Shown one piece after another: positions 58,039 through 60,582 of a stretch of 64,000 bases of DNA (position 1 is the stretch's first letter; every line of letters starts with the position of its first letter). The notes under the pieces are model-generated. The model searched no databases. It was not told where the DNA came from and saw nothing but the letters and a program-made list of their open reading frames with translations. The position numbers and the translations under genes are program-made. The stretch comes from a virus: the IMG/VR virus record IMGVR_UViG_3300008952_000004, positions 62,001 through 126,000 of that record. The stretch is one strand, 5' to 3'.

Positions 58039-58067
58039 TTGACAAAGAGAATTTACTGTGTTACAGT
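58039..58067 (+). promoter_or_regulatory. Sigma70-like promoter before gp32
   Basis: TTGACA at 58039-58044, a 17-base spacer, and TACAGT at 58062-58067, a close match to the bacterial housekeeping consensus. It precedes the gp32, FKBP and UvsX genes and differs from the ACTATTTAT boxes before structural genes, suggesting early or middle expression by host RNA polymerase. Confidence 0.75.
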
Positions 58068-58076
58068 ATGGATTAG

Positions 58077-58126
58077 AAACTTAGAAGATTAGCTGAGTTT
58101 ACTTTAACAATTAGGAGAAAAGTTAA
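58077..58126 (+). promoter_or_regulatory. Structured gp32 leader, possible translational operator
   Basis: AAACTTAG (58077-58084) pairs with CTGAGTTT (58093-58100), one wobble, around an eight-base loop. Then TTAAC (58104-58108) can pair with GTTAA (58122-58126), enclosing the AGGAG ribosome binding site. T4 gp32 represses its own translation through a structured leader; these elements are placed where an equivalent operator would be. Function inferred. Confidence 0.5.
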
Positions 58127-58896
58127 TGGCAATTGATTTAAAAAAGATTCAAGAAAGAAAGTTCGCTCTTGAAAATCGAGGCGGCTCAAAACAAAAAAAT
58201 GGGTTTTGGAAGCCGCAAGATGGCGAACAAACAATTCGGATTATTCCGACGGCAGACGGGGATCCGTTTAAGGATTATTGGTTCCACTATAACGTGGGCA
58301 AGAATTCTGGTTTCCTTTGTCCGAAAAAAAACTACGGAGAGGACTGTCCTGTCTGTGAATTTGCTAGCAATCTATGGCGTGAAGGCGACGATGGAAGCAA
58401 GAAGATGGCTAAATCCCTCTTTGCGCGACAACGTTTCTTCTCTCCTGTGATGGTCCGAGGAGAAGAAGCTCAGGGGGTCCGAGTCTGGGGCTATGGAAAG
58501 ATGGCGTATGAGACGCTGCTTAACCTAGTGTTAAACCCGGAGTATGGGGATATTACCGATACTGAAGCTGGGACAGATTTGGTCATGACATATGGCAAAC
58601 CTCCCGGTGGGCAATTTCCATTAACAAAGCTCACACCAAAGCGCTCAACTTCGCAATTTTGCGAGGATGTGACACCTGAACGTTGCAAAGAAATTTTGGA
58701 TGCTATTCCAAACTTTGAAGACTTGTTTGATCGCAAGACTACTTCAGACGTTCAGGCTCTATTGGATGAATTCCTGCTTTCTGATGACGATGCCGAGTCG
58801 GCATCAACTGAGACAGTAAAATATTCTTCCACAAGCGATACAGCTTCGGAAGCGAACACTGTTTCGGATGCTTTTGATGAGCTATTAGGTAGCTAG
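58126..58896 (+). CDS. Single-stranded DNA-binding protein (gp32-like)
   Basis: 256 residues. The central domain has the T4 gp32 zinc motif in recognisable spacing: H54, C65, C74 and C77 (H-x10-C-x8-C-x2-C; T4 is H-x12-C-x9-C-x2-C). The N-terminal basic segment K-K-I-Q-E-R-K-F-A-L corresponds to the cooperative-binding part, and the C-terminal ~60 residues are acidic and Ser-rich (S-D-D-D-A-E-S-A), ending D-E-L-L-G-S, the tail that binds replication partners. It coats single strands for UvsX, primase-helicase and polymerase. Somewhat shorter than T4 gp32 (301). Confidence 0.95.
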   Translation: MAIDLKKIQERKFALENRGGSKQKNGFWKPQDGEQTIRIIPTADGDPFKDYWFHYNVGKNSGFLCPKKNYGEDCPVCEFASNLWREGDDGSKKMAKSLFARQRFFSPVMVRGEEAQGVRVWGYGKMAYETLLNLVLNPEYGDITDTEAGTDLVMTYGKPPGGQFPLTKLTPKRSTSQFCEDVTPERCKEILDAIPNFEDLFDRKTTSDVQALLDEFLLSDDDAESASTETVKYSSTSDTASEANTVSDAFDELLGS

Positions 58897-58902
58897 TTTA
58901 TT

Positions 58903-58937
58903 ATCCCACAGGGGGGCACAGGGTTATCAGGTGTCTC
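58903..58937 (+). promoter_or_regulatory. Leader RNA element copy 1 (before FKBP gene)
   Basis: GGGGCAC (58913-58919) pairs with GTGTCTC (58931-58937) using two G-U pairs, with an 11-base loop containing GGG (58921-58923). CCC at 58905-58907 lies just upstream and could pair with the loop GGG as a pseudoknot. The arrangement is repeated with compensating changes before UvsX. About 28 bases separate it from the ATG. Confidence 0.6.
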
Positions 58938-58965
58938 GAACCAATTTTATTTAAAGAGGAAAAAA

Positions 58966-59391
58966 ATGAGCAAAGCTAAAAATGGAAATAATGTCAAAGT
59001 ACATTATAAAGGAACTCTTAATGATGGTACTGTGTTCGATAGCAGTCATGACCGGGGGCAAACCTTGGATTTTGAATTGGGTTCAAAAACCCTTTTGCCT
59101 GACTTTGAGAAAGCTGTCGTAGGTATGACAGTAGGTGCCAAGAAATCTTTTAAGATTACAGAAGGTTACGGAGTATATGATCCAACAGCAGTTGTGAAAG
59201 TATCTAAAGAGGTTTTTCCGTCTGACTTCGTTTTCGAAGTTGGCACATCTGTGCAGGGAACTAGCCCAAATGGTCAAGTAGCAGTTGCTAAAATCAACTC
59301 AGTTACAGACACCGAGGTCGAATTGGATCATAACCATCCACTCGCAGGGCAAGACCTTAATTTTGAAGTTGAGTTAGTCGACATCGGTTAA
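58966..59391 (+). CDS. FKBP-type peptidyl-prolyl isomerase, SlyD-like
   Basis: 141 residues. FKBP pattern: V-K-V-H-Y-K-G-T-L-N-D-G-T-V-F-D-S-S (~9-26), L-L-P-D-F-E-K-A-V-V-G-M (~45-56), then an inserted flap-like domain (~70-115) and a final strand F-E-V-E-L-V-D; D-H-N-H-P-L-A-G is the typical SlyD return segment. It would catalyse prolyl cis/trans isomerisation and act as a folding chaperone. The metal-binding His-rich tail of E. coli SlyD is missing. Phage-borne isomerases of this kind are uncommon; it may assist folding of the many very large virion proteins. Lies between gp32 and UvsX. Confidence 0.9.
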   Translation: MSKAKNGNNVKVHYKGTLNDGTVFDSSHDRGQTLDFELGSKTLLPDFEKAVVGMTVGAKKSFKITEGYGVYDPTAVVKVSKEVFPSDFVFEVGTSVQGTSPNGQVAVAKINSVTDTEVELDHNHPLAGQDLNFEVELVDIG

Positions 59392-59396
59392 CTTTA

Positions 59397-59430
59397 ATCC
59401 CGCAGGGAGGCATGGGTTTATAGATGCCTC
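59397..59430 (+). promoter_or_regulatory. Leader RNA element copy 2 (before UvsX gene)
   Basis: GAGGCAT (59407-59413) pairs perfectly with ATGCCTC (59424-59430), with a 10-base loop beginning GGG (59414-59416). CCC at 59399-59401 can pair with the loop GGG. Compared with copy 1, one pair changes C-G to U-A and two G-U pairs become G-C and A-U, preserving the stem. Confidence 0.6.
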
Positions 59431-59454: not shown

Positions 59455-60582
59455 ATGGCAAGACCGAAGTCAGGAAAAAAAACAAAAGTTGGTAAGCTGA
59501 GCATCGCTGATATGCGCTCTCTTATTAATAAGAAGGCGGGAATTAACGTTGCACACAACCTAGCAGAGAAGAACCCGACAGAGGTGAGCGATTGGATCCC
59601 TACAGGATCTCGATGGCTAGATTCTATTATTTGTCGTGGTCATCTGGCAGGGATACCAGTAGGCAAAATCACAGAAATCGCCGGATTAGAGTCGACAGGA
59701 AAATCTTTTTTAGCAGCACAGGTTGCCGCGAACGCTCAAAAAATGGGAATCGACGTAATATATTTCGATTCAGAATCAGCGATTGATCCAGAGTTTTTGG
59801 CTCGTGGTGGCTGTGATGTTGATCGAGTATTATACGTTCAGGCTCAATCAGTGGAGTTTGTATTAGAAACCATTGAAGATCTTTTGGAGACAAATGAGAA
59901 CCGGATGCTCTTTATATGGGACTCTTTAGCGCTTACACCATCCACAACAGATGTAGAGGGGGACTTCAACCCTTTGTCATCGATGGCAGTAAAGCCAAGA
60001 ATCTTATCAAAGGGAATGTCAAAGTTGACTGTTCCAATCGCGAACAGCCAATCAACATTTCTGGTTCTTAATCAGCTTAAAACAAATATCACAAGCAACA
60101 TTGCGGAAGCGCTTACGACGCCATATTTTACGCCCGGTGGAAAGGCAATGCATTATGCGTATTCACTTCGCATTTGGCTCACGGGGCGCAAGGCGAAAAA
60201 TGCATTTGTCACGGATGAGCGCGGCTTCCGTATCGGATCTGAAGTTAAAGCCAAGATTCAAAAGTCGCGCTTTGGGACGCAAGGTCGCCAAAGTGCTTTT
60301 AAAATCCTTTGGGGTGAAGAGGTCGGAGTCCAAGACGAAGAAAGTTGGCTCGAAGCAATCAAGGGATCGGATAATTTAAAAAATGCTGGTGCTTGGTATC
60401 AGTTGGTTTATGAAGACGGCTCTGTGGATAAATTTCAAAGTGCTCATTGGCTTGATAAGCTTAAAAATGAAAAATTTAAAAATAGGGTCTTACAAATAAT
60501 GGACGAAGAAGTTATACTCAAGTTTGATAAACGCACAGGAGATGCCACAGACTTTTATGGAGATGATGAAGATGAAAAATAA
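59455..60582 (+). CDS. uvsX: UvsX recombinase (RecA-like)
   Basis: 375 residues, close to T4 UvsX (391). Walker A G-L-E-S-T-G-K-S at 77-84; Walker B L-F-I-W-D-S near 155-160, followed by the L1/L2 regions (L-V-L-N-Q-L-K at ~202-208, then T-P-Y-F-T-P-G-G-K-A). It forms filaments on ssDNA after end processing by the gp47-46 fusion and drives strand exchange for recombination-dependent replication. The C-terminus is acidic (Y-G-D-D-E-D-E-K). The last 11 bases overlap the next gene. Expression is likely influenced by the leader hairpin. Confidence 0.94.
   Translation: MARPKSGKKTKVGKLSIADMRSLINKKAGINVAHNLAEKNPTEVSDWIPTGSRWLDSIICRGHLAGIPVGKITEIAGLESTGKSFLAAQVAANAQKMGIDVIYFDSESAIDPEFLARGGCDVDRVLYVQAQSVEFVLETIEDLLETNENRMLFIWDSLALTPSTTDVEGDFNPLSSMAVKPRILSKGMSKLTVPIANSQSTFLVLNQLKTNITSNIAEALTTPYFTPGGKAMHYAYSLRIWLTGRKAKNAFVTDERGFRIGSEVKAKIQKSRFGTQGRQSAFKILWGEEVGVQDEESWLEAIKGSDNLKNAGAWYQLVYEDGSVDKFQSAHWLDKLKNEKFKNRVLQIMDEEVILKFDKRTGDATDFYGDDEDEK

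Follow-up and report, generated by a model that had tools for sequence, protein, structure and literature searches.

The window, the whole 64,000-nt stretch of DNA that was analysed, is part of a 190-kb viral record from IMG/VR. Genes for a gp32-type single-strand DNA-binding protein (SSB), an FKBP-type peptidyl-prolyl isomerase and a UvsX/RecA-type recombinase were located in it behind a probable promoter, and each of the two gaps between these genes was found to hold one copy of a short structured RNA element (Table 1). The names gp32, FKBP and UvsX had been given to these genes in an earlier note on this DNA, and the profile matches agree with them; both copies that the note had described were confirmed in the sequence. 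The CC of copy 1 begins 9 nt past the gp32 stop codon, and that of copy 2 begins 8 nt past the FKBP stop codon. Exactly two copies were returned from the whole 190-kb record by pattern and covariance-model searches. The motif ATCCCRCAGGG, with one mismatch allowed, would be expected about once by chance in the window; the element therefore stands above chance because it is conserved among relatives, not because of the short motif alone.

Table 1. Features of the gp32–FKBP–UvsX region (positions are those of the window)
Feature	Positions	Strand	Evidence or remark
Probable promoter of the gp32–FKBP–UvsX operon, TTGACA-17-TACAGT	58039..58067	+	Consensus match 10/12; prediction only
gp32-type single-strand DNA-binding protein gene	58126..58896	+	PF08804, E 3e-15; phrog_1192, E 3e-25
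Element copy 1, H-type pseudoknot	58905..58937	+	Sequence; covariation in 254 and 65 homologues; covariance-model match, E 4e-8
Copy 1, P1	58905-58907 with 58921-58923		
Copy 1, R/R'	58908 and 58920		
Copy 1, P2	58913-58919 with 58931-58937		
A/T-rich tail of copy 1 with FKBP ribosome-binding site	58938..58965	+	Sequence; family tails T-rich 2-8 nt past the stem
FKBP-type peptidyl-prolyl isomerase gene, between both copies	58966..59391	+	PF00254, E 4e-20
Element copy 2, H-type pseudoknot	59399..59430	+	Sequence; covariance-model match, E 3e-11; exception to X:X' pairing
Copy 2, P1, shifted register	CCC 59399-59401 with GGG 59414-59416		
Copy 2, P2	59407-59413 with 59424-59430		
UvsX/RecA-type recombinase gene	59455..60582	+	phrog_97, E 1e-56; PF00154, E 8e-36; start 24 nt past copy 2

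The consensus of the family is X-CC-R-CAGG-(5' strand of P2, 7 nt)-R'-GG-X'-loop-(3' strand of P2). By comparison of the copies, it was resolved as a 33-nt H-type pseudoknot in which helix P1 is formed by X-C-C with G-G-X', and R and R' make up a matched purine pair at the helix junction. The first loop is the four-nucleotide CAGG; the second has 5–7 nt and ends in CAG or UAG. A loop of 4 nt over seven pairs and one of 5–7 nt over three pairs suit a classical H-type pseudoknot. Copy 1 reads X-CC-A-CAGG-GGGGCAC-A-GG-G-UUAUCAG-GUGUCUC, and copy 2 reads CCC-G-CAGG-GAGGCAU-GGG-U-UUAUAG-AUGCCUC.

A standard X:X' pair was present in 235 of the 254 distinct copies that were collected, compared to a mean of 124 and a maximum of 149 in shuffles. 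The pairs comprised C-G (125), A-U (82), U-G (10), G-C (8), U-A (8) and G-U (2), with mismatches in 19. The purines R and R' were G/G in 165 copies, A/A in 85 and mixed in 4. On the gp32 tree, 16 coupled switches of R and R' between A/A and G/G were counted, and X changed at least 17 times; in an independent-pairs test of X against X', the cases on starred branches were too few for significance. The stem is kept in the family, with double changes at four of the seven P2 pairs and about 99% of cells paired (65 homologues), and the pairing signal was lost when the partner strand was slid. The seven-pair stem of the earlier note, with its C-G to U-A and G-U to G-C or A-U changes between the two copies, is correct. 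The CCC/GGG pseudoknot that it had suggested is real across the family. Copy 2 is one of the 19 in which X:X' fails (its outer pair would be C:U), though a CCC:GGG helix shifted by one position is possible. With copies selected under a looser pairing rule, 101 G-U cells were found versus 5 A-C cells; therefore, the sense RNA is the working form, and a palindrome acting at the DNA level is disfavoured. A local CCC-RCA-GGG hairpin was also considered and rejected. In it, X would face the first base of P2, which is G in 213 of the 254 copies, and the A found at X in 86 could not be explained.

The family is sizeable. A total of 254 distinct copies was obtained from the viral loci that were fetched (about 320), and each of two pattern scans across viral contigs gave at least 120 matches, from which it follows that the family is large. 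Among UvsX relatives taken from IMG/VR, 42 of the nearest 80 loci had the element, and in each it lay on the coding strand. Of 15 whole records searched with a covariance model, 13 had one to three copies per genome; tandem copies were encountered in L112, L162 and L304 only. The carriers number in the hundreds and are uncultured, mostly marine phages. The element was absent, at the sensitivity used, from 50,697 named phages, whose UvsX relatives are all below 60% identity (best, ca. 32%). The 84,980 cellular species that were scanned yielded 11 pattern matches, of which about four (L313, L315, L320 and L322) resemble true copies and apparently lie on phage contigs inside metagenome-assembled genomes (MAGs). 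The records of L315 (CP070664.1), L313, L320 and L322 are titled as WOR-3, Halobacteriovorax and Flavobacteriales MAGs. L315 carries a gp32 end, and all four are probably phage contigs or chimeric bins.

With Rfam 15, nothing at or above the gathering threshold was found in the window or over the elements in 11 further loci; the best sub-threshold match on an element was to freshwater-2 (17.6 of 49.9 bits). A riboswitch or other Rfam family was ruled out by this absence of a covariance-model match. The preQ1-I and SAM-II riboswitches are similar to the element in size and H-type fold. Unlike these small pseudoknot riboswitches, the element has no Rfam match, is tied to a DNA-replication operon rather than to metabolism, follows genes and can precede tRNAs. 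As judged by its structure, then, it is almost certainly a real, previously uncatalogued family of pseudoknot RNAs, and the view of the earlier note that a conserved cis-acting RNA outside the described families is present is upheld by the Rfam and covariation evidence.

Nearly all copies (248/254) are near gp32 or UvsX. The gene directly upstream was gp32 in 127 of 251 copies, and the gene directly downstream was UvsX in 74 of 251; gp32 was downstream of the element in no case. Of 132 multigene loci, in which other genes lie between gp32 and UvsX, 105 have the element behind gp32 and 32 have it directly in front of UvsX, so its place is with the gp32 side and not with UvsX. Because many loci were fetched by the element's own pattern or by UvsX, these counts describe this phage group and not all phages. 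In most copies, the first C of CC is 7–13 nt past a stop codon, on the sense strand, and the next start codon is mostly 18–31 nt past P2. Between the element and the next gene, tRNA genes were found in L070 (checked with ARAGORN), L108 and L114 (both read by eye), and a terminator was found in L085, L084 and L090, the latter two having a promoter-like site as well. Such an intervening tRNA or terminator does not suit a leader, and the earlier definition of the element by its role as leader to FKBP and UvsX is not supported: the next gene may be separated from it by tRNAs, terminators or promoters. The layouts of three other loci fit poorly with an element that acts purely at 3' ends. In L016 and L193, a promoter-like, near-consensus site sets the predicted transcription start within about 1 nt of the element's 5' end, and the element is predicted to be a 5' leader there; in L299, a terminator precedes it. 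Action on the nascent RNA (attenuation) or as a barrier to decay fits both the leader-like and the 3'-end loci.

Very small genes recur between gp32 and UvsX. They encode a 62-aa protein, short acidic lipoprotein-like proteins, a 163-aa protein and FKBP, and they often have an element of their own after them (e.g. L009, L096 and L193). In some phages (L281, L298 and L242), a protein of 286–305 aa starting MKPLFMWAGGKT is encoded downstream of elements in the operon; by eye, it looks like a D12-class DNA adenine methyltransferase.

Relatives that lack the element often carry a strong conventional hairpin with a T-tail in the gap 3' of gp32 (about 27 loci), and at least eight exchanges between element and conventional terminator were counted on the gp32 tree; the element is found at the 3' ends of genes and is interchangeable with terminators. 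A T-run 2–8 nt past P2 is enriched, with T at 0.73 at the peak. TTTT occurred in 46% of copies versus 8% at downstream control positions, and the run was found in 101 of 199 tails versus 29 in shuffles. That it is a general feature of ribosome-binding regions was rejected, as other leaders have no such peak and the run is anchored to the stem, not to the start codon. The earlier note had reported no T-tract and had concluded that the copies are not terminators. The former is accurate for copy 2 and loosely so for copy 1 (TTTT 7 nt past the stem) but not for the family; the latter is not supported, given the stem-anchored run and the conventional terminators at the same spot in relatives. The element and the intrinsic terminators at the gp32 3' end of relatives share a position just past the stop codon, the sense strand, a hairpin and a T-rich tail, and they replace each other. 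They differ in that the stem of the element is weaker (P2 alone has a median of -9.7 kcal/mol versus -19 for the conventional terminators here, the energy of the pseudoknot not being counted), and its T-run is displaced 2–3 nt from the stem and is missing in about half of the copies. A classical hairpin-plus-U-tract score was above 0 in 0% of copies. Ordinary terminators, for their part, are without the conserved pseudoknot and loop sequences.

Other structures were observed as well. A second pseudoknot family, X-CCG-(C/A)U-GGCAGAC-CGG-X'...GUCUGCC followed by (G/A)C-TTTTT, was found after stop codons in many viral contigs (L349, L359, L086, L168, L177, L023 and L064, and most of a set of 95 entries), at up to four copies per contig and at times directly behind the main element. 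Its X:X' is paired in 67 of 95 entries, and there was no Rfam match to it in the scanned carrier locus L162. The gp32 3' gap of L008 (486-606), L013, L025 and L033 holds a long hairpin whose large loop includes a conserved TTCCCCCTA, followed by CTCTTTT. That of L207, L231, L246, L260, L261, L295 and L299 has a conserved stretch around CCTCCTGTGTTGTAAGGG ahead of a terminator-like hairpin. On another viral contig, a tmRNA gene with the tag peptide ANNNYHFEAARLAA was predicted (L232:12588-12957).

The explanation that we tentatively prefer, at slightly less than an even chance, is that the element is a pseudoknotted, terminator-type 3'-end or attenuation element that steps expression down after gp32. 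The pseudoknot would form right behind the stop codon of gp32 or of a following small gene. Aided in about half of the copies by the short U-run 2–8 nt past P2, it would cause part of the transcripts to end at the element, or would halt 3'-to-5' decay, and the outcome would be abundant gp32 with stepped-down expression of the following small genes and of UvsX. The invariant loop bases suggest that the fold may also be recognised, possibly by RNA polymerase or by a phage protein; the step in expression could accordingly be adjustable. The position after the stop codon, the sense strand, the gp32 3' end, the exchange with terminators and the stem-anchored T-run all favour a terminator. So do the tRNA, terminator or terminator with promoter that follows in L070, L108, L114, L085, L084 and L090, and the different pseudoknot hairpin, with a clearer T-tail, that takes this place behind gp32 in L023 and L064. 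Against it are the weak P2, the absence of the T-run from about half of the copies and the leader-like L016 and L193; moreover, the strong terminator just downstream in L084, L085 and L090 would be redundant.

The main rival, which we regard as unlikely, is a translational operator to which the phage SSB (gp32) or UvsX binds. Nucleation on the pseudoknot would be followed by spreading over the A/U-rich tail and the ribosome-binding site, and FKBP, the small genes and UvsX would be repressed at an excess of SSB. In the gene 32 mRNA of phage T4, gp32 binds a pseudoknot of ca. 28 nt, behind which come UUAAA repeats and the gene's own ribosome-binding site (PMC535899; PMC3014915). Like this operator of T4 and RB69 gene 32, the element is a compact phage pseudoknot of the H type, lies in the gp32 region and is succeeded by an unstructured, A/U-rich stretch (26% G+C) with a ribosome-binding site. 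The confinement of 248 of the 254 copies to the gp32–UvsX neighbourhood is consistent with an SSB-bound operator, as is L193, in which gp32 no longer leads the UvsX operon and the predicted mRNA of this operon begins with the element. However, the element comes after gp32 (upstream gp32 in 127 cases, downstream in none), its loops are conserved in sequence, it recurs between several genes, and it swaps with terminators. Repeats of the T4 type (UUAAA/UAAA) were not enriched, TTAA being present in 80 of 199 element tails versus a mean of 68 and a maximum of 86 in shuffles, nor was TTAAA. Because it never precedes gp32 and TTAA is not enriched, the element is not a member of the T4 gene 32 operator family. 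An SSB-bound operator could nonetheless act in a T4-like manner on other genes, as the M13 SSB, gp5, does in repressing another gene (PMC535899). Such action is opposed by the tRNA or terminator that comes before the next ribosome-binding site in L070, L084, L090, L108 and L114, and by the position directly before UvsX in 32 of 132 multigene loci only.

To an element of mRNA stability or processing, which would block exonucleases or mark a cleavage and so protect the 3' end of the gp32 message or the 5' end of the downstream message, we give the same low probability. The start of the fold a few nucleotides past the stop codon, the predicted transcripts that begin at the pseudoknot in L016 and L193, the proximity to tRNAs, which are themselves processed, and the processed and stable gene 32 mRNA of T4 (PMC3014915) are in keeping with it. 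Conversely, a conserved cleavage sequence was not found in the stretch from the stop codon to the element, and a stem-anchored T-run would be superfluous in such a role.

Two further candidates are very improbable. Pseudoknots of viral readthrough signals have a similar spacing of 7–9 nt past the stop codon, and no stop interrupts the frame from copy 1 into FKBP; yet readthrough or frameshifting into the next gene is largely refuted, since the frames are random (of 197 copies, 32 have a readthrough frame that runs uninterrupted into the reading frame of the next gene, compared with 19 and 32 for the other two frames), the distances have no frame preference, and copy 2 has a second in-frame stop. 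A decoy aimed at a type III (ToxN) toxin of the host, as is the pseudo-ToxI of phage PhiTE, would likewise be a short phage-encoded H-type pseudoknot, close in length to the 36-nt ToxI pseudoknot (PMC3475682), and the few tandem pairs (L112, L162 and L304) could be read in that sense, but the element is nearly always single and tied to one operon instead of lying in repeat arrays, conserved cut sites were not found in its flanks, and PF13958 (ToxN family) had no matches in 15 phage records, the control genomes being silent too.

A wider proposal, which is improbable as a whole and marginally more so than either the SSB-bound operator or the stability element, is that these RNAs constitute an undescribed family of pseudoknotted, protein-responsive transcription attenuators that serve the SSB-recombinase operon in a large group of phages. 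The phage SSB or polymerase would read the pseudoknot, transcripts would stop after gp32 or continue into UvsX, and the second pseudoknot family (CCGCT-GGCAGAC-CGG...GTCTGCC) would be a relative in other phages.

With this element, phage biology gains an abundant and well-supported structured RNA that is missing from current libraries. It is situated at the SSB-recombinase operon, where T4 autoregulates by means of a pseudoknot, though on the opposite side of the gene, and it probably sets the output of the downstream recombination genes. If, as in the preferred reading, the element ends transcripts, it would represent a class of terminator in which a pseudoknot determines the strength; were SSB to read it, it would be the counterpart, at another location, of the T4 gp32 control.
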